A model generated the notes under the pieces. It was not told the origin of the DNA, did no database searches, and saw only the letters and a program-made list of their open reading frames with translations. Below, one piece after another: positions 2,789 to 56,925 of a stretch of DNA of 64,000 nucleotides. The translations under genes and the position numbers were made by a program. Positions within the stretch are counted from its first letter, which is position 1; every line of letters begins with the position of its first letter. This DNA comes from Liolophura sinensis (taxonomy: Eukaryota > Mollusca > Polyplacophora > Chitonida > Chitonidae), in NCBI RefSeq assembly GCF_032854445.1, contig NC_088304.1:8011704-8075703 (forward strand), written 5' to 3'.

Positions 2789-3540
2789 CTGATACTTGTG
2801 AGTTCAAAGGCTAGGTATGCTGCGATTCTTGACAGAGAAGTGAGCATGATGAGTAGATATTATATATGTTTGCCTCTTTCTACAGTGCCAAGTGCTTGTT
2901 CTCGTGTGTGAACTACCTGTCTATCAGCAGGTGTAAATACCGGTACATATTTATTTTTGAAAGTTAGCGCTAACGCATCTTTTTCTCGTTAGGAAACTAC
3001 ACAATGGATGACTGTATGTTTAAATTCAGGAAGCTTGTGCTTCCTCTATCACTGAGCCTGAAGGCCGTCGTACAGATTAAGTCAGAAAATCTTGAGTAAT
3101 TGCAGTTAACGTCACTGTATTTTTTTTACCTAATTCTCCTTAAGCCACGGTGCTAGGGGGCGTATAATTTGCTGCTATATATGCATTTACAGAAACAGAA
3201 TAAAAGCCTAGCTGAAGTGATTTAACACGAGGCCGCATTTCACCGTTACCTGTGACCATTTGTCAGTTGGGGGTTTCACTGACATTCACTCAGTAAATAA
3301 TCAAGGTCAGGCAATCCAAAAAAGGGATTATAACAGTTAATCAATAGGGCGGATTTCCTGAAATCCAGCCTCGGTTGTTTGGGCAGAAGCTTCAAGTCTG
3401 GAGGTGTATCCAGTAACTATGGCAGGCGACGGGCGGTGGTGTCACCCACCATTAACCTGACCTCTGTCGTACAAGTTCTGTGACTAACTATTCGATACAC
3501 CCGTGACTTGATTCTAGCGATGTGGCGGAGAAGGCAATAC
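2789..3540. other. No recognised feature
   Basis: Unique-looking AT-rich sequence between two SINE copies. I see no coding exon or clear repeat. Confidence 0.4.
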
Positions 3541-41716: not shown

Positions 41717-41897
41717 ATGAACGAAGTGATTCGAAGACCTGATCAAACGTCGCCGAAATCTAGCCCCCGTGGGGGCTCCAGGTCCCCGGCCTACCCACGG
41801 ACGGACACGACGGGCACCCTCAGAACCACCATCAGCTTGGGCAAGGTCCCATCCGTCATCCCTAGGGGTCCGTTTTACCTGATGAAAGATCCCCCTG
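41717..41897 (+). CDS. MED19: MED19 coding exon 1
   Basis: Encodes residues 1-60 and the first base of codon 61. Ends GATCCCCCTG/GTAAGT. It holds the Ser/Pro-rich start and the highly conserved GPFYLM motif. An upstream non-coding exon cannot be excluded. Confidence 0.9.
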
Positions 41898-44800
41898 GTA
41901 AGTGGAATGTACCGGCTGTAAACAATAGGGGCCATAGAGTGTCCGATCTTCGTAGGCAGTGCCGAGTTAACTACGTACACTGTTGTTTAACTGAGAACGG
42001 TTATCTTGGATTCCATATTTTATTCGATCTTTCAGTGGTTGGACATTTCTTTCTCTTGATGATTTAATGGCTCACGGCGCAGATCTAAAATTTTATGGTT
42101 GTTGCTAGCCCTGGATAACATCACATACATCATCAAATTCGACTTTTCCGCTTGCTTGAACTTCACAAAAATGACCGCTCATCATATACACCATTCAGAT
42201 TCCTGGGCTGTACATTCTTACCGTTTACATTTCCATTGGCTCATCTCCGTTACCACAGCCGTGAGGCAAACAACGTGGCGACCTGCTCCTACTTAACCCA
42301 TCATCCTTTCTCAATGTGAATATCCGAAGTGCATGAAGCTGATGATTTTACACAAAGATTTTACCAGTGCAGTTGAAATATTCAACAGGGGAAGGATTAT
42401 CTAATTGCAATCAAGGTCAGGGAATACATTGAGTAGATATGATTCCTTACACAGATAATTCAAGACCAGCGAAAGTACTGGCTTGAGTGAAACTCATACA
42501 CAGGATTTAGGGTGTCTAGCCCCACCGTTCAACCTACTGAGCTGTCGAGCCAGATGGGAACGGCTCGCTTGTTATAGTCAAGTTATATGCAGTGAATAAT
42601 TTTCACAAAGGCACAAAAAATTTATAGTACAATGTACAAAGAGATAAGGGCTAATTACAATCATCGTCGGGGAATATAACAAGTAGATATGGTTTTCCTA
42701 CACTGATCTACCTCGCAGTTGGGAGAGTTATGGAAAGAACGTGTTCCAAATACATGTATGTCACGTGTATGGTTAGTAAGAAACATTTACAACTCTTCAC
42801 ACATGTATTAAAACTTCCATAAACTAGCATAAATCAATATCAAGTGAGTGGTTTTGAGACTAACTTGGGATGATGGGTAAACCAGTGTGTCAGGTTAGGA
42901 TGATGTGTAAACCAGTGTGTCAGTTTAGGATGATGGGTAAACCAATGTGTTAGTTTAGGATGATGGGTAAACCAATGTGTCAGTTTAGGATGATGGGTAA
43001 ACAAGTGTGTTAGTTTAGGATGATGGGTAAACCGGTGTGTCAGTTTAGGAGGATGGGTAAACCAATGTTTCAGTTTAGGATGATGGGTAAACCAATGTGT
43101 CAGTTTAGGATGATGGGTAAACCTATGTGTCAGTTAGGATGATAGGTAAACCTATGTGTCAGTTAAGGATGATGGGTAAACCTATGTGTCATTTAAGGAT
43201 GATGGGTAAACCAATGTGTCAGTTTAGGATGATGGGTAAACTGATGTGTCAGTTTAGGGTGATGGGTAAACCAATGTGTCAGTTTAGGGTGATGGGTAAA
43301 CCTATGTGTCAGTTTAGGATGATGGGTAAACCAATGTGTCAGTTTAGGATGATGGGTAAACCTATGTGTCAGTTAAGGATGATGGGTAAACCTATGTGTC
43401 AGTTTAGGATGATGGGTAAACCTATGTGTCAGTTTAGGATAATGGGTAAACCAATGTGTCAGTTTAGGTTGATGGGTAAACCTATGTGTCAGTTTAGGAT
43501 GATGGGTAAACCTATGTGTCAGTTTAGGGTGATGGGTAAACCTATGTGTCAGTTTAGGATGATGGGTAAACCAATGTGTCAGTTTAGGATGATGGGTAAA
43601 CCAATGTGTCAGTTTATGATGATGGGTAAACCTATGTGTCAGTTTAGGATAATGGGTAAACCAATGTGTCAGTTTAGGATGATGGGTAAACCTATGTGTC
43701 AGTTTAGGATGATGGGTAAACCTATGTGTCAGTTTAGGATGATGGGTAAACCTATGTGTCAGTTTAGGATGATGGGTAAACCTATGTGTCAGTTTAGGGT
43801 GATGGGTAAACCTATAGCCCCGTTTACACTACCGCTTTTCAACCGGGCTCGGCCCTGATGGGGCACGGCCCGGCAAAAAATTGGGTAGTCTAAACGGGTT
43901 AAGCGTACTCGGCACCGTGCCAGATTTGACCGGGCCGAACCCCTCAACGAGAGGTAGGCTCGACCCAGCTGTAGCTCGGCTCGGCTAGACAAACGTGTAG
44001 TGTAGACGCGTCACCGTGCCTGGCCCGCTCAGAGGACTTAACTGCGCATGCTTAAAGGCAACTTCCTCTGACCTTCCACTTGCGGCTTTTCAATTGGCGC
44101 ACTTTTTTCGAACAATAAGAATTTAAATATGTCAACAAATCGTGGCGCTACTTGGACAAAAGAGGAGACAGAACAGCTATTAGCTATTTGGGGCGAGGAA
44201 AACGTGCAGGCGCAACTTGAGAGCGCTCGTCACAACCACAAGATTTTTGAGCAGATCAGTGCATCCTTGGCAGAGAAGGGCGGATTCGACTTGCAACTAC
44301 TGGCAGCGCCATTTTCGCAGCTGAATAAAGTGTTTGTACCTCCAATGTCTGAAGAGTGCCACAAATAAATAGCCCAACTCAACCTGAGTTGTCGTTCCTG
44401 TTTGTGATAATGGATTTGGCCCGCCAGCGAGGCGTGTAATGTAAACGGTACTTGTCAAGGGGGCTCGGCCCTGATCAAGCGCGACCCTGCTAAAATGGGC
44501 CCGGCCCGGCTGTAGTCTAAACGCGGCTTATGTGTCAGTTTAGGATGATGGGTAAACCTATGTGTCAGTTTAGGATGATGGGTAAACCTATGTGTCAGTT
44601 TAGGATAATGGGTAAACCAATGTGTCAGTTTAGGATTATGGGTAAACCGATGTGTCAGTTTAGGATGATGGGTAAACCTATGTGTCAGTTTAGGGTGATG
44701 GGTAAACCTATGTATCAGTTTAGGATGATGGGTAAACCAATGTGTCAGTTTAGGATAATGGGTAAACCAATGTGTCAGTTTAGGGTGATGGGTAAACCTA

Positions 44801-47800
44801 TGTGTCAGTTTAGGATGATGGGTAAACCAATGTGTCAGTTTAGGATGATGGGTAAACCAATGTGTCAGTTTAGGATAATGGGTAAACCAATGTGTCAGTT
44901 TAGGGTGATGGGTAAACCTATGTGTCAGTTTAGGATGATGGGTAAACCAATGTGTCAGTTTAGGATGATGGGTAAACCAATGTGTCAGTTTAGGATGATG
45001 GGTAAACCTATGTGTCAGTTTAGGATAATGGGTAAACCAATGTGTCAGTTTAGGATGATGGGTAAACCTATGTGTCAGTTTAGGATGATGGGTAAACCTA
45101 TGTGTCAGTTTAGGATGATGGGTAAACCTATGTGTCAGTTTAGGGTGATGGGTAAACCTATGTGTCAGTTTAGGGTGATGGGTAAACCTATGTGTCAGTT
45201 TAGGATGATGGGTAAACCTATGTGTCAGTTTAGGATGATGGGTAAACCTATGTGTCAGTTTAGGATAATGGGTAAACCAATGTGTCAGTTTAGGATGATG
45301 GGTAAACCTATAATGGGTAAACCAATGTGTCAGTTTAGGATGATGGGTAAACCTATGTGTCAGTTTAGGATAATGGGTAAACCAATGTGTCACTTTAGGA
45401 TGATGGGTAAACCAATGTGTCAGTTTAGGATGATGGGTAAACCAATGTGTCAGTTTAGGATGATGGGTAAACCAGTGTGTCAGTTTAGGATGATGTTTAA
45501 ACCAATGTGTCAGTTTAGGATGATGGGTAAACCTATGTGTCAGTTAGGATGATAGGTAAACCTATGTGTCAGTTAAGGATGATGGGTAAACCTATGTGTC
45601 ATTTAAGGATGATGGGTAAACCTATGTGTCAGTTTAAGATGATGGGTAAACCTATGTGTCAGTTTAGGATGATGGGTAAACCAGTGTGTCAGTTTAGAAT
45701 GATGGGTAAACCAATGTGTCAGTTTAGGATGATGGGTAAACCAATGTGTCAGTTTAGGATGATGGGTAAACCAATGTGTCAGTTTAGGATGATGGGTAAA
45801 CCTATGTGTCAGTTTAGGGTGATGGGTAAACCTATGTGTCAGTTTAGGATGATGGGTAAACCTATGTGTCAGTTTAGGGTGATGAGTAAATCTATGTGTC
45901 AGTTTAGGATGATGGGTAAACCTATGTGTCAGTTTAGGGTGATGGGTAAACCAATGTGTCACTTTAGGATAATGGGTAAACCAATGTGTCATTTTAGAAT
46001 GATGGGTAAACCAATGTGTCAGTTTAGGATGATGGGTAAAACCAATGTGTCAGTTTAGGATGATGGGTAAACCAATGTGTCAGTTTAGGATAAAGGGTAA
46101 ACCAGTGTGTTAGTTTAGGATGCTTGGTAAACCACTGTGTCAGTTTAGGATCATTTGTAAACCTATGTGTCAGTTTAGGATGATGGGTAAACCAATGTGT
46201 CAGTTTAGGATAATGGGTAAACCATTGTGTCAGTTTAGGATGATGGGTAAACCTATGTGTCAGTTTATGATGATGGGTAAACCTATGTGTCAGTTAAGGA
46301 TGATGGGTAAACCAGTGTGTCAGTTTAGGATGATGGGTAAACCGATGTGTCAGTTTAGGATGATGGGTAAACCAGTGTGTCAGTTTAGGATGATGGGTAA
46401 ACCAGTGTGTCAGTTTAGGATGATGGGTAAACCTATGTGTCAGTTTAGGATGATGGGTAAACCTATGTGTCAGTTTAGGATGATGGGTAAACCTATGTGT
46501 CAGTTTAGGATCATTTGTAGACCTATGTGTCAGTTTAGGATGATGGGTAAACCAATGTGTCAGTTTAGGATGATGGGTAAACATGTGTGTCAGTTTAGGA
46601 TAATGGGTAAACCAGTGTGTCAGTTTAGGATCATTTGTAAACCTGTATGTCAGTTTAGGGTGATTGGTAAACCTATGTGTCAGTTTAGGATGATGGGTAA
46701 ACCGATGTGTCAGTTTAGGATGATGGGTAAACCAATGTGTCAGTTTAGGATGATGTGTAAACCTATGTGTCAGTTTAGGATGATGTGTAAACCTATGGGT
46801 CATTTAAGGATGATGGGTAAACCAATGTGTCAGTTTAGGATGATGGGTAAACCTATGTGTCAGTTTAGGATGATGGGTAAACCTATGTGTCAGTTTAGGA
46901 TGATGGGTAAACCAGTGTGTCAGTTAAGGATGATGGGTAAACCTATGTGTCAGTTAAGGATGATGGGTAAACCTAAGTGTCAGTTTAGGATGATGGGTAA
47001 ACCAATGTGTCAGTTTAGGATGATGGGTAAACCTATGTGTCAGTTTAGGATGATGGGTAAACCAATGTGTCAGTTTAGGGTGATGGGTAAACCAGTGTGT
47101 CAGTTTAGGATCATTTGTAAACCTGTGTGTCAGTTTAGGGTGATGGGTAAACCTTTGTGTCAGTTTAGGTTGATGGGTAAACCAATGTGTCAGTTAAGGA
47201 TGATGGGTAAACCTATGTGTCAGTTTAGGATGATGGGTAAACCAATGTGTCAGTTTAGGGTGATGGGTAAACCAGTGTGTTAGTTTAGGATGATGGGTAA
47301 ACCAATGTGTCAGTTTAGGATGATGGGTAAACCAATGTGTCAGTTTAGGGTGATGGGTAAACCAATGTGTCAGTTTAGGATGATGGGTAAACCAATGTGT
47401 CAGTTTAGGATGATGGGTAAACCAATGTTTTTGTTTAGTGTGATGGGTAAACCAATGTGTCTCTTGAAAAATGGTTTTGAAATATATATGTACATGTATG
47501 ATAAGTATGTGAATACAAGATAGGAGAGAGAGAGAGCCTCCAAAATTCAGGATATATAAAAGGTAAAGAACTTGTCATGTTTTCCCATACATATCATCAT
47601 CAATGTCAGAATGATACACCTTAACATGGACATGGAAATTTGGACAGTTCCACATTGAAAAATCTTATTTATTTATTCCATTTGGTGTTTTATGTCGTAC
47701 ACCATGTATACTTGTGATTACTGCTGCTTTTGTAACTCCTGCCTAGTTCCTAGTTACAGATCACAATGAATACTAGTTACTGTGTAACTTCTGCATGTTT

Positions 47801-50800
47801 ACACTTAAAGATTATGCTGCACACTTACATGTATATGGTTACAGATCACGATGCACTCTTGTAACTTTCGCTTGTTTTTAGTCACCGGTCATGTTGCACT
47901 CATGTTTATGTTTACAGGTCATGATGCACAAGTTTATAGTTACAGATCATAAATTGCCCACTTGTTTATGTTTACAGGTCATGATGCACACTTGTTTATG
48001 TTTACAGGTCATGATGCACACTTGTTTATGTTTACAGGTCATGATGCACGTTTGTTTTTGGTTCCAGATCATGCAGAGATTACAGGAAGCACTAACCTGA
48101 TGTCAGTCTATGGGATGGAACATGCCTATAGCAAATTCTGTGGGAGGAAAGTGAAGGAGGAGTTGAGCGCATTTCTACCTCACCTGCCCGGGTACATTGA
48201 CACGCCAGGCCTCCAGGATAACAGGTAGACTCCTGTTCAACTTGTTATTCCTCTGTAGATAAGCAGAGCATATGCAGTAGTGCTACATGTGGTAAAGCTA
48301 ATGACATGCATCTATAGATTGACAGAACAGTGTAAACAAGTTGACTTCAAACTTTTCTAACTCAGTAGCCTGCACATATTCAGGCGCACATGAAATACAA
48401 ATATGGAACAACAAGGACTTTGTGGAACTTTTTTTTTTAACTGCTTGTGATGAACCACTGTTTGATGTCATTTAAAGAATTTTATATATGGCTCTGTGTC
48501 CAGACTGTTTTGCCAGGGTCACAAGTTACATGAGACAGTAGAGCATTGTGCGAGGCTATACAGGAAGCACTGTCAACTTTGGTTTCCGTGGCATGTACAT
48601 AATTCAGTATGTGATCGCATTAGTTATTTGTTCTTGTTTTGTTTCCAGTGCATTACGGTCTGTTGTGGACAAGCCTCCGATAACAGGGAAAGAGTTAGTT
48701 CCCTTGTCTGGCTCTGCATTGACAGGATTTCGGCTACACCCTGGCCCGGTAAGTGCTTTCATATGGTGGCAGTCAGGTTTACAAGTAGAGGAAACTGGAT
48801 TGTCTGAAGTAAACTACAGCCCTTGGCCAAGTACAAGTTGCTATTTAAATTCCAGGCAAAGCTGCAGCCAGTTGTGTGTGTGGGTCGGTGGGTGGTGGGG
48901 TGGGTGGGTAGTCTCCATGGCCGATTGGTTAATGTGGCAGTGTGTTACAATAAGTCAGGAGTCCCTCGCCAATGTGTCGCTCTCTAGGTCATGCTGGCTT
49001 TATCTCTGGTCATAAGCGTGAAGACCTGCCAGCAGCCTGCAGATTGTCGTGGGTCATTCCGCCATAAATAATGCTGGCTGCTGTCATAAAAGTGAAATAT
49101 TTTTTAGTACGGTGTAAAACACCAGTCAAGTAAATAAATAAAGCTGGGGTCAGACCAGCAAGAGCTGCATGTGAGGATCATGAATCTTTCTTAGTCTTAA
49201 AGGACAAGAAAACATAAAATGATGCCAAAATCAGATGAAAGAGCGTCAAAACTTATTTGCAAATATGATCTTTAATATTTGTTTGGATTTTTTTTTTTTC
49301 AAGAGAAAAGGGTATTTGAAAATATTTGTGTATGGTGGGTATTAGGGACCAACTTTTGGTATTTATCGTTGTTGCATAATAATGTTATAAATAAGGATGT
49401 GATGCTTGTCTAATTTATTTGAATGTAAATTTGTTGTTTACATCGAAACATATGCATGTAACCTAAATTATGATAATATTTATGAACATATTAAAAACAT
49501 GAATATGATCCAAATTGAGGTTTAATTTGTTTGTTAGCTGAAAAGAACAAATTTATTAAACCTGTTTTACATCCTCATTTATGACATTATTAAACAAAGA
49601 CTATAAATACCAATAGGTGGCCCCAAATACCCACAATGCAAAAATTATTTTCAAGTGTCTTTCTCTCCTTAAGGAAAATCTGGAAAAAATATTGAAGACC
49701 ACATTTAGGAATAACTTTTCACACTCTTTCAGCTGAACCTTATGTCATTTTTATGTACTCTCCACCTTCAAGCTACTCTCCTTATACAGAGGACCGAAGC
49801 CGTAAGTCTATTCAACCTCTGCTGAAAAGCCTGCACACCTCGAATACAGAGATGTAAACATAGCTATTTAACATAACCCTATCCGACCAATGGAAACGAC
49901 TCTAGGATCTTCTGGCGGGAAGTCGTGAACAGTAAATGACAGTTGACATCCAACTGTCCTAGAGCTCTATATTCGACAATCATGCTATTCGATGGCTACG
50001 CCAAAGAAATGGAAAAATTATGTGGATTTCAAGGTTTACTGTAGAATTTGTTTAGCACAGCTAGTATCCACAGGGAGTAATCTTGTTGTGACAGCCCAAA
50101 GGCGTGATTTGACAATGGCTCTAAGAAGCTCCTGGACGCTTTCCACTTCGTCTTCCCTGAAGTTGTCGTGGTAAAAGGAGAGGGCTTTGTCTGTCTCAAG
50201 ATTAGATATGTTGTGTCAGTCTCTTCTGTTTATCTAACATTCCCATCCTGTTAATTTATTTATTTATTTGATTGGTGTTTTATGTCGTACTCAAGAATAT
50301 TTCACTTATACGACGATGGCCAGCATTATGGTGGGAGGGAACCGGGCAGAGCCCAGGGGAAGTCTACCCATCCTGTTAAAGCAGCAGGTTCACTCCACCG
50401 TTACCCCACCCCATCACCAACAGCTTCTGCATGTATCTTGAAGTTATTTTAAACAGCAGGGTGAAAAAAAAAGCAACAACATAAGCAATAGTGCTGTCCT
50501 GGCAACTTTCCCAACCAGCAGGAGAGGTAGGGTAGTGGGAGAGGGTCCATTACTGACCACCTTCCTGCACCCCCTGCTGGCTGAAACCCCCTACACACAT
50601 GAACAGAGAACAAAATAAGTGAGTGGGAAATGGCCCCTTTCCCATCCCCTGTTTGATTTGAACAATGTACATGTTTTACAGGGACCTAGCATTACGAAAA
50701 GGTTTTCTATAATAATACATCTTAGTATAAATTCTAAAAAATAATAATAGAAAAAAAACAATAAAAAAAAGAAAAGTAGAAAAACAAATATTTATATTTT

Positions 50801-53800
50801 AGGTTTAACATATCGCATTAAGACTCTGAACAAGGAAAGTTAAGAGAGATGGGACATCATGTACTATGTACCAAGCAAATGTCAACATCTTTCAAAAATC
50901 AATAGAACTCTCAGAATCAGGAAACATGCACAAATAAGTCATGGACAAAATTTTGGGTCATTTAGCACAAATATATAAACCAGAATACATAATTAGCCAT
51001 CCCACTGTGGCCATGTGATCATGGTATCATGATATATATCATTGATAATACATTTGTAGATGGGCGAAGATTTAGGACTCATTTCATTTGTTTGAGAGAC
51101 AAATATTCTGCTGCAAGAAACAATTTAGAGCATTGATGTACACGTATAATACTTGCATTAACCACATTTTAGCCACTTGGGCATAAGAAACAACATCTAG
51201 TCTCTTAGTTCATCAATATCAATTTCAATGACCTCTTGGTCTGACCATCTGCAGTATCCTCAGATGCGTAGTCCTCCCCAATATACACTGCCGGTATGCT
51301 CCTCATGTTTAGACCTTCCATTTGAGATTTCATAAGGCTCACCAGGGGAGACACAACAATAACCATAGGGAATCTTTACAGTTTTGTTGTTGTTGTTGGT
51401 ATAAGGTTACCGTTGACAGTGCCAGGAAGCGTAATGATTTCCCTGCTCCAGTCTTCCCGCACACAAAAACATCTTTTCCATGTATAATTGCTTGCAGTCT
51501 CTGTCTATGATATTTGTTCAGCTCTTTTATCCCAAGTTTCTGACAAACAAGAGCCTCGGCTTCTCTGCTAATTTTTTCACATTCTTGTTCTTCTGTCGAG
51601 ATCTTTCTTTTGCCAGCTCTTGCTTGATGATGAATATTAATGAAGACTCCCCCGTAGTCTTTCACGAAGGCTGTTTTTCTCGTACGGAGCATTCATTGGC
51701 TAACACTGATTACATCACTGTCCACTTGTATGCGAATGTGTTAAGCATTTCGACAGATCGAAAACTGATGTGTTAGGGCGGTCTGGTTTAGAGAGACTAC
51801 CTATAAGTTAGATTTTAATCGTTTTAACTTCAAAACTTTTTACTGCATGAAAATTGTGAGTTACCATTTTCATTTAAAATACAAAGAAATGTCGTAGACT
51901 TTGTTAACAAAATTGAAGCTTTGTATTTAATGTTCAGATCTTAAGTTCAGGAATATAAGACATTTATTTCTTATGCAAAATGTGATGTTTATACAACCAT
52001 GACAACATGCCTTTGTAAGGATAAATTGATTTGATATTTACTTTTGGTCGCGCACAGAATTATTGACGTGTCTTAAATATATACTTCACTTTTTTTAGAG
52101 GTGGGGGAAGGGAACCTTGCTTCGGGGAATGGGTGGGGTACTGGTAGGCCCTTTAGCGATAAGGCCATGTGTGTGAGTCCAGCTCTAGCTGTTTTAACTG
52201 CTGCTGACCGCTGTCATATCAGTGAAAAAATGTTAAATGTGACCTTAAAAGGAGAGCAAGTTGGAACTCATTACCTGTAATATGGAATGGAATGGAATGA
52301 AGGTAATCATTTATAGCGATTGTTTACAAACCTGTCATAGGATTTTTTTTGTTATGTTTTGTCTTTATCAGTTACCTGAACAGTATAGACTGATGAACCA
52401 AATGCCACAAAAGAAGAGACACAAGCACAAAAAACACACCAAGAAGGAGACACCCAAAGAGGAAGCTTTGCTGGAAACGCAAGGTAAGCTTAAACTTGAT
52501 TTAGTTGTACTCTTGTCTACCTCTGTGAAAGACTTTGCTAGACACAAAAGGTAAGCTCAAGCTTCATCCAGTTGTAGTCTTGTCCACCACTGTGAAAGGC
52601 CTTGCTACATGTAGAAACAAAAGGTTAGCTCAGACTTCATCCAGTTGTAGTCTTGTCCACCACTGTGAAAGGCCTTGCTACATGTAGAAACAAAAGGTTA
52701 GCTCAGACTTCATCCAGTTGTAGTCTTGTCTACCACTGTGAGAGGCCTTGCCACATGTAGAAACACAAGGTAAGCACAAGCTTCATCCAGTTGTAGTCTT
52801 GTCCTCCTCTGTGAGAGGCCTTGCTACATGTAGAAACACAAGGTAAGCACAAGCTTCATCCAGTTGTAGTCTTGTCCACCATTGTGAGAGGCCTTGCTAC
52901 ATGAAGAACCACAGGGTAAGCTCCAGCTTCATCCAGTTGTAGTCTTGTCTACCACTGTGAAAGGCCTTGCTACATGTAGAAACACAAGGTAAGCTCAAGC
53001 TTCATCCAGTTGTAGTCTTGTCCACCATTGTGAGAGGCCTTGCTACATGAAGAACCACAGGGTAAGCTCCAGCTTCATCCAGTTGTAGTCTTGTCCACCA
53101 CTGTGAGAGGCCGTGCTACATGTAGAAACACAAGGTAAGCTCCAGCTTCATCCAGTTGTAGTCTTGTCTACCACTGTGAGAGGCCTTGCTACATGTAGAA
53201 ACAGAAGGTAAGCTCCAGCTTTATCCAATTGTAGTCTTGTCTACCACTGTGAGAGGCCGTGCTACATGTAGAAACACAAGGTAAGCTCCAGCTTCATCCA
53301 GTTGTAGTCTTGTCTACCACTGTGAGAGGCCTTGCTACATGTAGAAACAGAAGGTAAGCTCAAGCTTCATCCCAGTTGTAGTCTTGTCCACCACTGTGAA
53401 AGGCCTTGCTACATGTAGAAACACAGGGTAAGCAGAAGCTTCATCCAGTTGTAGTCTTGTCTACCACTGTGAGAGGCCTTGCTACATGTAGAAACAGAAG
53501 GTAAGCTCAAGCTTCATCCCAGTTGTAGTCTTGTCCACCACTGTGAGAGGCCTTGCTACATGTAGAAACACAAGGTAAGCTCAAGCTTCATCCAGTTGTA
53601 GTCTTGTCCACCACTGTGAGAGGCCTTGCTACATGTAGAAACACAAGGTAAGCTCAAGCTTCATCCAGTTGTAGTCTTGTCCACCTCTGTGAGAGGCCTT
53701 GCTACATGTAGAAACACAAGGTAAGCTCCAGCTTCATCCAGTTGTAGTCTTGTCCACCTCTGTGAGAGGCCTTGCTACATGTAGAAACACAAGGTAAGCT

Positions 53801-55814
53801 CAAGCTTCATCCCAGTTGTAGTCTTGTCCACCACTGTGAGAGGCCTTGCTACATGTAGAAACACAAGGTAAGCACAAGCTTCATCCAGTTGTAGTCTTGT
53901 CTACCACTGTGAGAGGCGTTGCTACATGTAGAAACACAAGGTAAGCACAAGCTTCATCCAGTTGTAGTCTTGTCCACCTCTGTGAGAAGCCTTGCTACCT
54001 GTAGAAACACAAGGTAAGCTCAAGCTTCATCCAGTTGTAGTCTTGTCCACCACTGTGAGAGGCCGTGCTACATGTAGAAACACAAGGTAAGCACAAGCTT
54101 CATCCAGTTGTAGTCTTGTCCACCATTGTGAGAGGCCTTGCTACATGTAGAAACACAAGGTAAGCTCAAGCTTCATCCAGTTGTAGTCTTGTCCACCATT
54201 GTGAGAGGCCTTGCTACATGTAGAAACACAAGGTAAGCTCAAGCTTCATCTAGTTGTAGTCTTGTCCACCATTGTGAGAGGCCTTGCTACATGTAGAAAC
54301 ACAAGGTAAGCTCAAGCTTCATCTAGTTGTAGTCTTGTCCACCACTGTGAGAGGCCGTGCTACATGTAGAAACACAAGGTAAGCACAAGCTTCATCCAGT
54401 TGTAGTCTTGTCCACCATTGTGAGAGGCCTTGCTACATGTAGAAACACAAGGTAAGCTCAAGCTTCATCCAGTTGTAGTCTTGTCCACCACTATGAGAGG
54501 CCTTGCTACCTGTAGAAACACAAGGTAAGCTCAAGCTTCATCCAGTTGTAGTCTTGTCCACCATTGTGAGAGGCCTTGCTACATGTAGAAACACAAGGTA
54601 AGCACAAGCTTCATCCAGTTGTAGTCTTGTCCACCACTGTGAGAGGCCTTGCTACATGTAGAAACACAAGGTAAGCACAAGCTTCATCCAGTTGTAGTCT
54701 TGTCCACCACTGTGAGAGGCCTTGCTACATGTAGAAACACAAGGTAAGCTCAAGCTTCATCCAGTTGTAGTCTTGTCCACCTCTGTGAGAGGCCTTGCTA
54801 CATGTAGAAACACAAGGTAAGCACAAGCTTCATCCAGTTGTAGTCTTGTCCACCACTGTGAGAGGCCTTGCTACATGTAGAAACACAAGGTAAGCACAAG
54901 CTTCATCCAGTTGTAGTCTTGTCCACCTCTGTGAGAGGCCTTGCTACATGTAGAAACACAAGGTAAGCACAAGCTTCATCCAGTTGTAGTCTTGTCCACC
55001 ACTGTGAGAGGCCACATGAGCATGGGAAACCTTGAAGTACTTGTTGCCTCCTTTATGGCCTACTGCCTTACATGTCCAGTGTATATGTATGCTGGGAAAG
55101 TTTTGGAGTACCATGTTGATATGATATGACATCGTTAGCATTATTAGATTCTTGTGTTTTTATTTTCAGCTGACAAACCCAGTGATGCTGGTCATGATCG
55201 AAGGAAGAAGCAGGATAAGAAAGATGAGAAGGATAAAAAGAGGAAAAGAAAAAAGAAGAAAAAAGTATGATTTTTTGTTTTTGTCCTTTATTCATCAATC
55301 TTTAATACTGTAGTGTTTGCTACATTTAATTCAGAAAATTTCTTTGCTTTTGAATTACTGTAAATATCTTTTATAGTGTCATGAAGGAAAATAGAGTCTT
55401 ATCTGACGATACAAGAAGACTCATTATATACTGACCATTGTTTTCTTTTGTACGTTGTCCGTAAGGAAAGCCTTCAGATCTAAACTAGAAAGCAGTGAAC
55501 ACCGTCCATTGGTCTGCAGCCTGTCAACAAATGTACATGTAACTTGTAGCACCCTGTCTTTTGGATATTAAGATGCAGTCAGGGCTCTACAGTTGGCAGT
55601 GCTTTGTATAATACCTCTTTAGATGGCAAAACATCTCACTCGAGAGTCCTACATATACATGGGTATGATTTTGCACGTCTTGTGACTAGGGATCCTTGGG
55701 TTTCACATGGGCTTGACATGTTTTACATATATATGTTGTCATTAATATGTCTGTTTGGGTTTTCAGAAGCACAGCCCCGAACATCAGTCAGCAGCGGCAG
55801 AGACAGGGTCCTAA
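41717..55814 (+). CDS. MED19: Mediator complex subunit 19, six coding exons
   Basis: MED19 is a small subunit of the nuclear Mediator complex that links transcription factors to RNA polymerase II. Coding exons are 41717-41897, 48068-48224, 48649-48748, 52372-52483, 55170-55264 and 55767-55814. All junctions are GT-AG, and phases (1, 2, 0, 1, 0) join without a break into 230 residues. Family blocks in order are: SPKSSPR (12-18), TTISLGK (37-43), GPFYLMKDPP (51-60), ITGSTNL (65-71), EHAYSKFCGRKVKE (78-91), FLPHLPG (96-102), LRSVVDKPPI (115-124), GFRLHPGPLPEQYRLM (139-154), a Lys/Arg-rich tail and KHSPEH (216-221). Its length is close to the human protein. The start at 41717 is preferred over the in-frame ATG at 41669 because similarity to insect MED19 begins there. 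The introns are loaded with repeats, but the coding sequence looks intact. Confidence 0.95.
42868..43815. repeat. 30-bp tandem array in MED19 intron 1, left block
   Basis: About 31 units of GATGGGTAAACCTATGTGTC plus AGTTTAGGAT. Variants alternate at the CCTATG/CCAATG/CCAGTG position. The block ends exactly at the transposon target site and resumes at 44529. The unit is stop-free in sense (a 10-residue MMGKPMCQFR pattern) and in antisense. Confidence 0.97.
43816..44528 (+). mobile_element. 713-bp TIR DNA transposon with Myb/SANT ORF, nested in the 30-bp array
   Basis: Ends are AGCCCCGTTTACACTAC and GTAGTCTAAACGCGGCT, inverted repeats matching at 15 of 17 positions. TAT is duplicated at 43813-43815 and 44529-44531; removing the element and one TAT restores the array unit. 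Subterminal sequence repeats the TIR core and a GGGCTCGGCCCTGAT block. The only ORF encodes a Myb/SANT-like domain and there is no transposase, so the element is non-autonomous. A 3-bp duplication plus a Myb-like protein suggests PIF/Harbinger, although that group prefers TWA targets. Confidence 0.85.
44129..44368 (+). CDS. Truncated Myb/SANT-like DNA-binding protein of the transposon
   Basis: This 79-residue frame starts at ATG in an AT-rich context (AAATATGTC). Residues 5-53 follow the Myb/SANT-like pattern seen in PIF/Harbinger accessory proteins and ZSCAN29-type genes: RGATWTKEETEQLLAIWGEE, then a second helix and KIFEQISASLAEKGGFD. The family normally continues with a third helix of RTWQQC type. 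Here it is replaced by LQLLAAPFSQ and a short unrelated tail, so the domain is probably broken by a deletion or frameshift after residue 53. In intact elements this protein is thought to bind the transposon ends and import the transposase. This copy is unlikely to work. Confidence 0.75.
   Translation: MSTNRGATWTKEETEQLLAIWGEENVQAQLESARHNHKIFEQISASLAEKGGFDLQLLAAPFSQLNKVFVPPMSEECHK
44529..47462. repeat. 30-bp tandem array in MED19 intron 1, right block
   Basis: About 97 units of the same sequence as the left block. Sense frames of 340, 173 and 387 codons and antisense frames of up to 312 codons arise because 30 is divisible by three and the unit has no stop in those frames. Breaks come from one-base indels (for example near 45545 and 46040) and a partial unit at 45311. 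Landmark variants recur at a distance, showing amplification in blocks. Confidence 0.97.
47463..47749. other. MED19 intron 1 spacer with SINE tail fragment
   Basis: TCTTATTTATTTATTCCATT followed by GGTGTTTTATGTCGTACACC (about 47663-47704) matches the minus-strand 3' end of SINE family 1. Nothing else is seen. Confidence 0.6.
47750..48067 (+). repeat. Acceptor-like 30-bp repeat before MED19 exon 2
   Basis: Three to four clean units of CTTGTTTATGTTTACAGGTC plus ATGATGCACA are preceded by several diverged ones (GGTTACAGATCACGATGCAC). The array runs straight into the real acceptor GGTTCCAG/ATCATGCAGAG, which has the same layout, so the array contains several pyrimidine-rich CAG acceptor-like sites. 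Confidence 0.8.
48068..48224 (+). CDS. MED19: MED19 coding exon 2
   Basis: Starts after GGTTCCAG and ends GATAACAG/GTAGAC. It carries ITGSTNL, EHAYSKFCGRKVKE and LPHLPG, the core of the conserved domain. Phase 1 in, phase 2 out. Confidence 0.95.
48649..48748 (+). CDS. MED19: MED19 coding exon 3
   Basis: Starts after TTTGTTTCCAG and ends GGCCCG/GTAAGT. Encodes SALRSVVDKPPITGKEL and LTGFRLHPGP. Phase 2 in, phase 0 out. Confidence 0.95.
48908..49142 (+). mobile_element. SINE (family 1) in MED19 intron 3
   Basis: The tRNA-like head is diverged (CATGGCCGATTGGTTAATGT). The body has AATAATGCTGGCTGCTGTCA and the tail ACCAGTCAAGTAAATAAATA. Sense orientation relative to MED19. Confidence 0.82.
49194..49772. 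mobile_element. MITE with long terminal inverted repeats, copy 1 (MED19 intron 3)
   Basis: Arms of about 150 bp are imperfect reverse complements. Left landmarks are CTTAAAGG, ACATAAAATGATG, CTTATTTGCAAATATGATCT and GTGTATGGTGGGTATTAGGG. Right landmarks, in reverse order, are CCCCAAATACCCACAATGC, AAGACCACATTTAGGAATAA, CATTTTTATGT and CCTTCAAG. There is no coding capacity. A second copy lies at 60046-60530. The target-site duplication is not clear. Confidence 0.75.
49992..50220 (+). pseudogene. Frameshifted Cys-containing ORF, origin unknown
   Basis: The frame starting at 49992 has a CRICL motif (residues 17-21), as in CxxC zinc-binding N-termini. After about residue 39 (near 50106) the more protein-like continuation (KKLLDAFHFVFPEVV, then KGEGFVCLK) lies in another frame. 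This suggests a degraded first exon or transposon-derived gene. Family not recognised; weak call. Confidence 0.3.
50255..50366 (-). mobile_element. 5'-truncated SINE (family 1) with 13-bp target-site duplication
   Basis: The tail and 3' part (GATTGGTGTTTTATGTCGTA, CCAGCATTATGGTGGGAGG, GGGCAGAGCCCAGGGGAAG) are present and the head is absent. The perfect direct repeat CCCATCCTGTTAA at 50242-50254 and 50367-50379 is the target-site duplication, so the truncation happened at insertion. Confidence 0.9.
50380..51204. other. MED19 intron 3, featureless part
   Basis: A/T-rich with A-rich runs near 50467 and 50740-50785. No exon or repeat family seen. Confidence 0.4.
51205..51692 (-). pseudogene. RecQ-like DNA helicase fragment, antisense in MED19 intron 3
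   Basis: Minus-strand frame from 51692. Residues 50-63 (CQKLGIKELNKYHR, followed by Gln64) resemble the motif preceding the Walker A of RecQ helicases. GKTGAGKS (79-86) is the Walker A itself. The first frame then loses similarity. A second frame (about 51365 to the TAA at 51205-51207) carries the motif Ia-like VSPLVSLMKSQMEGL followed by PAVYIGED, as expected for the same helicase. The DEAH box and everything after it are absent. The two parts could be joined only by an intron of about 37 nt, which is unusually short, so a frameshift is more likely. Best read as a truncated, broken copy of a dispersed helicase gene. Confidence 0.65.
51693..52371. other. MED19 intron 3, right part
   Basis: Mostly featureless. 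At about 52160-52240 GTGTGAGTCCAGCTCTAGCT and GACCGCTGTCATATCAGTGA resemble an eroded plus-strand SINE. The intron ends TTTGTCTTTATCAG. Confidence 0.4.
52372..52483 (+). CDS. MED19: MED19 coding exon 4
   Basis: Starts after TTTGTCTTTATCAG and ends GGAAACGCAAG/GTAAGC. Encodes LPEQYRLM followed by the Lys/His-rich KKRHKHKKHTKKE. Its last 20 or so bases and the donor are the seed of the array that follows. Confidence 0.95.
52467..55015 (+). repeat. 73-bp tandem array built on the MED19 exon 4 donor
   Basis: Roughly 34 units of GTAAGCTCAAGCTTCATCCA, GTTGTAGTCTTGTCCACCA, CTGTGAGAGGCCTTGCTACA and TGTAGAAACACAAG. The first unit is the real exon/intron boundary (GCTTTGCTGGAAACGCAAG/GTAAGC). Almost every unit keeps a CAAG/GTAAGC donor consensus in sense orientation. 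Units differ by a few substitutions (CTC/CAC, CCAGC/CAAGC), with occasional one-base insertions (CATCCCAG). Successive donors near 52989 and 53062 are 73 bp apart. Confidence 0.95.
55170..55264 (+). CDS. MED19: MED19 coding exon 5
   Basis: Starts after TTTTATTTTCAG and ends AAGAAAAAA/GTATGA. It encodes a strongly basic stretch (DKKRKRKKKKK), as in the C-terminal tail of MED19, likely nuclear-localising. Phase 1 in, phase 0 out. Confidence 0.93.
55767..55814 (+). CDS. MED19: MED19 coding exon 6 (terminal)
   Basis: Starts after GGGTTTTCAG and encodes KHSPEHQSAAAETGS and a TAA. The HSPEH motif is the conserved end of MED19. The alternative frame through this exon is open longer but lacks any similarity. 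Confidence 0.92.
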   Translation, partial: KHSPEHQSAAAETGS

Positions 55815-56215
55815 TACCAGCTGAACAGTGTTGTGTGTGAACTACTTACCAGTGACAAAGACGGGCTCCAAACTCTAGTGAAAATTCAGAGTGTTGTGTA
55901 TGAACTCCTGACCAGTGACCGTTGTGTTCACCTATTCACACTGTATGTGTGTGTGTGTGTGTTAACACTGCCTGGTGTATGCACAGCTCACAAATACCAC
56001 ACCAAATACTCTGATATTTGTGTACTTTGGATTTACATGTTTGTCCACATTGTAGGATTGGGCATTGTGTGTAACATGGATGGATGTCTACAACGTGGTC
56101 TTGTAGCACCAGACAATTGTCTACATCTTGTCCATTGTGGATTGTTGAATGTGTATACATTGTGGAATAAGGGTATGTGTGGTAAGCATGAACAAATGTC
56201 TATATCATGGACTAG
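55815..56215 (+). other. MED19 3' flank or UTR
   Basis: TG-rich sequence with a (GT)n run at about 55947-55961. GTGTTGTGT(A/G)TGAACT and ACCAGTGAC each occur twice. No canonical AATAAA was seen close to the stop, so the transcript end is unknown. Confidence 0.4.
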
Positions 56216-56925
56216 TACCACCAGGTAAATGACTAGGGATGTCTATATTATGGGCCTGTACCACCAGGTAAATGACTAGGAATGTCTACATTATGGGCCT
56301 GTACCACCAGGTAAATGACTAGGAATGTCTACATTATGGGCCTGTACCACCAGGTAAATGACTAGGAATGTGTACATCATGGATGTACAACCAGGTGAAT
56401 CACAAGGAATGCCTATGTGAAAGACTTGTGCCAACATGTAAATGACTGTAAATCTTTACATCACACAACTGTGCCACCAGGTAATAGAAAAGGAATGTCT
56501 ACATGAATGACAGGTGCCAACGGGTAAATGGCTACGTCACAGACTTGTGCCACCAGGTAAACGATTAGGAATGTCTACATCATGAACCTGTGACGCCAGG
56601 TAAATGACTAAGAATGTGTACATCATGGATGTGCCACCAGGTAAACAACTAGGAATGTCTACACCATGGACTTGGAAAACCAGGTAAATGACTAGGAATG
56701 TCTACATCATAGATGTGCCACAAGGTAATTGACAACGAATGTCAACATTATGAACTTTTCCACCAGGTAAATGACTAGGAATGTCTACATCACAGACTTG
56801 TGGCAACAGGTAAATGACTAAGAATGTCTACATCATGGATGTGACACCAGGTAAATTTGTAGGAATGTCTACATCATGGACTTATGACAGCGGGTAAATC
56901 AGGAGAAGTGTCTACACTGTACATT
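56216..56925. repeat. Degenerate tandem repeat of about 42 bp (CCACCAGGTAAATGACTAGG)
   Basis: About 16 units of CCACCAGGTAAATGACTAGG followed by AATGTCTACATCATGGA and a variable end. Each clean unit holds a CAG/GTAAAT donor-like string. The left units are nearly identical and the right units are diverged. Confidence 0.88.

Follow-up and report, generated by a model that had tools for sequence, protein, structure and literature searches.

A 73-bp minisatellite spanning the exon 4 donor of MED19 in a chiton, probably a long member of the splice-junction arrays known from amphioxus

Tandem repeats whose unit spans an exon/intron junction, on the donor or on the acceptor side, have been described in amphioxus as mirages; AG/GT is kept in many of their units and the edge units escape homogenisation (PMC3087553, PMC3902484), as in the array that opens intron 4 of MED19 in the chiton Liolophura sinensis. 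This edge effect, i.e., the presence of divergent units at the array edge, was described for an amphioxus mirage (PMC3087553). RT-PCR and Adh3 data were reported to suggest that splicing is undisturbed by amphioxus mirages (PMC3087553; the RT-PCR result is restated in PMC3902484), and a model proposed splice-junction arrays as raw material for new introns (PMC3087553). Likewise, the internal tandem repeats reported in human segmental duplications are minisatellites at exon-intron boundaries (PMC2812944), and a length-variable intronic minisatellite has been reported in a mollusc, in intron 3 of the abalone TSSK1-like gene (PMC6905558). As judged by titles and abstracts, no mollusc mirage was recognised among the papers listed in searches of the open-licence literature.

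The window, i.e., the whole stretch of 64,000 nucleotides that was analysed, contains a gene identified as MED19 (Pfam Med19, E=1.4e-65; best solved MED19 chain, E=2.3e-52), which lies on the + strand and is composed of six coding exons with a frame unbroken throughout. Arrays detected by TRF cover 29% of the window vs 8.6% of the sampled gene loci. The features are as follows:

41717-41897, + strand: MED19 exon 1, coding part (reading frame; donor CCTG/GTAAGT; Pfam Med19)
42868-47461, + strand: 30-bp minisatellite of intron 1, interrupted by an inserted element at ~43816-44533
47754-48067, + strand: end of intron 1 with decayed acceptor-like sites, a 3' splice-site mirage (TRF 47887-48073; local score; site list)
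48068-48224, + strand: MED19 exon 2 (reading frame)
48649-48748, + strand: MED19 exon 3 (reading frame; donor CCCG/GTAAGT)
52372-52483, + strand: MED19 exon 4, the last ~20-26 nt homologous to the 73-bp unit (reading frame; alignments)
52484-52489, + strand: true exon 4 donor AAG/GTAAGC (77th percentile score among 43 sampled donors)
52474-55013, + strand: minisatellite of 34.8 copies of a 73-bp unit; decoy donors 1-34 from 52551 to 54963 (TRF; donor listing)
55170-55264, + strand: MED19 exon 5 (reading frame)
55767-55814, + strand: MED19 exon 6, coding part with the stop (reading frame)

The element inserted in the 30-bp array of intron 1 (window 43816-44533) is ~715 bp long, has imperfect inverted ends, contains an ORF at 44072-44368 and looks like a DNA transposon. 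Downstream, a 43-bp array at 56195-56899 adjoins the MED19 stop; its units also hold CAG/GTAAAT, with no exon shown alongside.

According to TRF, the units of the intron 4 array match at 94%. Together with the true exon 4 donor (GT at 52484), 34 sense-strand copies were counted, giving 35 donor-like sites, and the figure of about 34 decoy donors proposed in the initial annotation is thereby borne out. The 34 donor-to-donor spacings were 67 nt (once), 73 nt (30 times) and 74 nt (three times), hence every unit in register has a donor. GTAAGC was kept in 32 of the 34 decoys and was replaced by GTTAGC in the other two, so that splice signals persist in many units, as in a mirage. The same annotation held that nearly every unit keeps CAAG/GTAAGC: this is right for GTAAGC and slightly generous for the longer motif, found exactly in 25/34 decoys, AAG/GTAAGC being identical to the true donor over nine bases in 29/34. 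The most divergent units were the first ones (the first two to four), with the 67-nt first spacing and GTTAGC in units 3 and 4; as judged by reading the unit listing rather than by a score, the edge units thus escape homogenisation. A search of the genome (609,464,459 bases, 632 contigs) with exon 4 and its junction placed all 24 matches listed at MED19 exon 4 or its array, in a search that skipped common words and scored only the best candidates, so that weak matches could be missed. Among these matches, the unit was not found elsewhere in the genome as it would be for a dispersed repeat or a transposon-derived array.

The initial annotation also proposed that the unit begins as the real exon 4/intron 4 boundary; that the unit spans this junction is supported. 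On the intron side, the first 48 bases of intron 4 matched the unit at 39 positions (local score 51), a score equalled in none of 5000 shuffles. The exon-side homology is short (~10-26 nt) and gapped: it was weak in unanchored alignments, whose scores were reached by 151/5000 and 650/5000 shuffles. When the alignment was anchored at the junction, omitting the last three bases that belong to the splice consensus, the score was reached by 2/1000 shuffles with the consensus unit and 9/1000 with unit 2; not one of the real ends of 66 other exons reached it. The alignment of the exon end with the unit, set out beforehand as a possible refutation, was therefore better than chance when anchored. Taken together, the intron-side and the anchored exon-side homologies indicate that the unit crosses the exon/intron boundary, with an exon part that is short in MED19 and long in the chaperonin genes CCT3 and CCT5.

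Similar arrays were found at other splice sites of this genome. At the end of MED19 intron 1, nine decayed acceptor-like sites spaced by ~30 bp, mostly TTACAG/, lead to the true exon 2 acceptor, which is the last of them; the AG has been lost at 47883. The local score of this array was 32 vs a maximum of 24 in 1000 shuffles. CCT5 (L030) has seven donors including the true one, with copies starting from 109 bp and repeating the donor together with ~93 nt of exon. CCT3 (L019) shows 11 donors, the true one among them, in units of 66 and 88 bp that contain the coding for LVPGGGATEMALAQ; decoys 1-6 follow one another at 66 nt and are in frame and stop-free. A second CCT3 exon (L027) shows five recognisable donors, and a third (L028) a 41-bp array in which 10 acceptors, counting the true one, can be recognised; the donor of this third exon adjoins a 27-bp array, scores 24 and was not counted. 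L019 and L030 were assigned to CCT3 and CCT5 by sequence, L027 and L028 to CCT3 by their position on C8; the CCT3 region is C8:53.404-53.413 Mb and that of CCT5 is C1:72.035-72.044 Mb. Arrays were also sampled from the other end: among the matches listed for donor words in C1:0-4.3 Mb, two of 11 arrays had an exon-anchored appearance and seem to begin where an exon ends. In one (L008, ~3490-3540), what looks like exon sequence lies between TTGTTTCAG and the first donor. The other (L011, 2430-2687) has an open frame that is weakly polycystin-like (best PDB E 0.053) and matches nothing in Pfam at 0.01; the array would open with a GC donor. A further array (L010) may be a coding repeat.

To place these cases against a background, the exons of PF00118, PF00227 and PF00004 (CCT, proteasome and AAA; ~35 genes by our grouping) were used as a sample picked without regard to arrays. 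The 74 candidate exons (28 + 21 + 18 loci and seven neighbours, the latter being seven of the 22 PF00118 matches with no locus of their own, included since they lay inside loci already sampled) became 72 without the single-exon CCT-like L013 and L014. Donors were left out for L034 and L038 (last exons), L059, L067 and L076 (ambiguous) and x2 (too little flank), and acceptors for L062, L065 and L071. Exon ends were chosen by visual inspection of scored candidates, except that a motif served to place L038. A 40-nt window over each splice site was scored for a tandem copy at ≤400 nt on the intron side, with intronic windows of the same loci as controls and a main cut of 38. Under these conditions, 3/66 donors were multiplied (4.5%, interval 0.9-12.7) vs 293/3431 controls (8.5%, bootstrap 4.8-12.6; p=0.37), and 1/69 acceptors vs 250/3359 (7.4%; p=0.06). 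Two of the positive donors belong to CCT3 and one to CCT5, and the positive acceptor to CCT3; the sample is small, three of its four positives come from one gene, and as two genes out of ~35 supply all three donors the effective sample is smaller still. At a cut of 30, the figures were 5/66 donors vs 9.0% and 1/69 acceptors vs 7.8%, two of the five donors not being junction-spanning (L041, a dinucleotide run; L075, intron only). A smaller run gave 3/43 donors vs 7.1% and 1/47 acceptors vs 5.5%. Upstream of acceptors, 2/68 windows lay in arrays at 40-150 nt and 6-7/68 at 400-600 nt; downstream of donors, 5/64 at 40-80 nt and 7/64 at 150-400 nt. On the same scale MED19, which is outside the sample, scored 35 at its donor and 32 at its acceptor, both under the cut of 38.

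Since these rates do not exceed those of the controls, the splice sites sampled were no hot spots: multiplied donors occur at a rate close to background or somewhat lower, and multiplied acceptors perhaps less often. The special status implied for the MED19 array by the initial annotation is not upheld by these rates. Donor words did outnumber reversed words in tandem patterns genome-wide (1359 vs 386, 570 vs 388 and 1958 vs 258, counted as hits, not arrays), which could mean that donors seed arrays more often than chance. We do not claim such a preference, because the excess concerns hits, the same words also differ in the single-copy DNA of the sampled loci (17 vs 4, 17 vs 21 and 10 vs 6) and the direct site test shows no excess. 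Two observations on the sampled families and the genome can be added here. L068 and L070 (C1:39401644-39402075) are neighbouring, near-alike AAA exons that correspond to one and the same stretch of the domain; each has an acceptor and a donor of its own, and the two are perhaps mutually exclusive exons. The genome also contains eight neighbouring molluscan haemocyanin domains.

The reading that we favour, with a probability of roughly three in four, is that the MED19 array is a mirage, i.e., a junction-spanning minisatellite that was seeded more or less at random and behind which the exon-proximal donor is still used. We infer the following mechanism of duplication, direction of seeding and use of the first donor. 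A tandem duplication of ~67-73 bp would have taken in the final ~20-26 nt of exon 4 together with ~48 nt from the start of intron 4, and the duplicated unit would then have been amplified and homogenised inside intron 4. As long as the exon-proximal donor is still used, the copies would act as intron and be free to expand or drift. If seeding is more or less random in such a minisatellite-rich genome, some arrays would start across a donor or an acceptor; indeed, with no excess over random intronic windows, splice-site arrays are an expected by-product of minisatellite seeding.

The direction from exon to array is clearer elsewhere than in MED19. In CCT3 and CCT5 it was the exon that seeded the array, because the repeated coding pieces are conserved and align with the CCT3 and CCT5 chains of other organisms, namely mammals and, presumably for some of the chains, yeast. 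The origin of the MED19 array had been considered as read directly from the sequence, a claim that does not survive: the end of exon 4 (EALLETQ) aligns where the solved MED19 chains, which we take to be mammalian, are several residues shorter, so that an array donating the exon end and the donor would look identical, and the direction of a probable exon-seeded origin is not provable in this gene. An array that arose first, in or near the intron, and from whose first unit exon 4 later took its end and donor (an extension of ~20 nt) would account for that position of EALLETQ and for an exon-side homology that stops within ~26 nt. We regard this order of events as unlikely, although it is the strongest competitor, given that the opposite direction is clear in CCT3 and CCT5 and that charged, low-complexity tails vary in length anyway.

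What the decoys would do if they were used can be read on paper. Use of decoy 1 would add 67 nt, shift the frame and run into a stop where exon 5 begins, while use of any of the 33 others (decoys 2-34) would retain an in-frame TAA formed by decoy 1's own GGTAAGC. Hence all 34 decoy transcripts would carry a premature stop, which makes the earlier suggestion of stop-containing, probably decayed transcripts stronger than stated (34/34). Its companion claim that most shifts break the frame agrees with the extension lengths, 23 of which are not multiples of three and 11 of which are. Transcripts with a premature stop are generally degraded by nonsense-mediated decay (NMD), and this would probably apply to decoy transcripts. 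Alternatively, the decoys might be functional, their copy number tuning MED19 output through unproductive (NMD) forms or through U1 recruitment along the intron. GTAAGC kept in 32/34 units, the stops given by all 34 decoys and the good homogenisation of the units (mean column diversity of 0.03 in the donor vs 0.04-0.06 elsewhere) would fit such a role, which we nevertheless hold to be highly improbable: the donor is not exceptionally conserved, 21 of the 63 nine-column windows of the unit being equally or better conserved, arrays are in no excess at the splice sites that were sampled, and in CCT3 decoys 1-6 keep the frame and meet no stop, which leaves no common NMD logic.

Most likely, the spliceosome goes on using the exon-proximal donor of MED19, as suggested by the intact protein together with the RT-PCR report from amphioxus. 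The choice of this donor was compared with predicted accessibility, in which the true MED19 donor ranked 34th, 35th and 35th of 35 under three window settings, the 35th being the lowest. The idea that RNA folding hides the copies and exposes the real donor was rejected, since the real donor comes last or next to last in these predictions. Ranks were inconsistent for the real donors of CCT5 (2nd, 4th and 3rd of five tested) and CCT3 (2nd, 4th and 7th of 11), and predicted accessibility did not differ between 60 real donors and 305 other GTRAG words (p=0.83). With the lowest or next-lowest accessibility and 29 of 34 decoys identical over nine bases, sequence does not explain a preference for the first donor, and an exon-definition or first-come rule may lie behind the choice.

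An assembly artefact is hardly credible: tandem arrays are prone to mis-assembly and the coverage was 14X, but the published Liolophura japonica assembly (609,495,693 bp, 632 scaffolds) is reported to come from PacBio HiFi reads with a mean length of 8,347 bp, longer than the 2.5-kb array (PMC11068029), and variant units differ among themselves.

A wider reading, to which we give even odds, is that in this chiton a few percent of all splice donors (3/66, 95% interval ~1-13%) are followed by tandem copies of themselves, the exon-proximal copy being picked although nearly all the decoys match it in strength, with copy number likely to vary between individuals. This genome would in that case serve as a large natural test of donor choice, in which near-identical donors behind a real exon test the spliceosome with strength nearly constant and mainly position differing. 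The MED19 decoys are in addition predicted to be more accessible than the true donor. CCT3 is the sharper case: the first six decoys being 66 nt apart, in frame and open, their use would leave a readable in-frame product instead of a loss to decay.

Compared with the known systems, the MED19 array differs from the amphioxus mirage BflGb6 by its host, a mollusc instead of a cephalochordate, and by its 34 copies instead of the three and six reported in two haplotypes. The amphioxus mirages come with RNA evidence, whereas the chiton array is described from its sequence, and for splice-site arrays in the chiton genome a rate was measured against background. The human repeats were linked, with support from transcripts, to new introns or to alternative splice forms (PMC2812944) and the chiton array shows no such change, while the abalone TSSK1-like minisatellite (PMC6905558) is not known to span a splice site. 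The MED19 array is therefore a long member of a known phenomenon, the mirages of amphioxus, accompanied by a first rough rate for one genome. With this rate, what was a curiosity of amphioxus becomes something to be expected in genomes rich in minisatellites.
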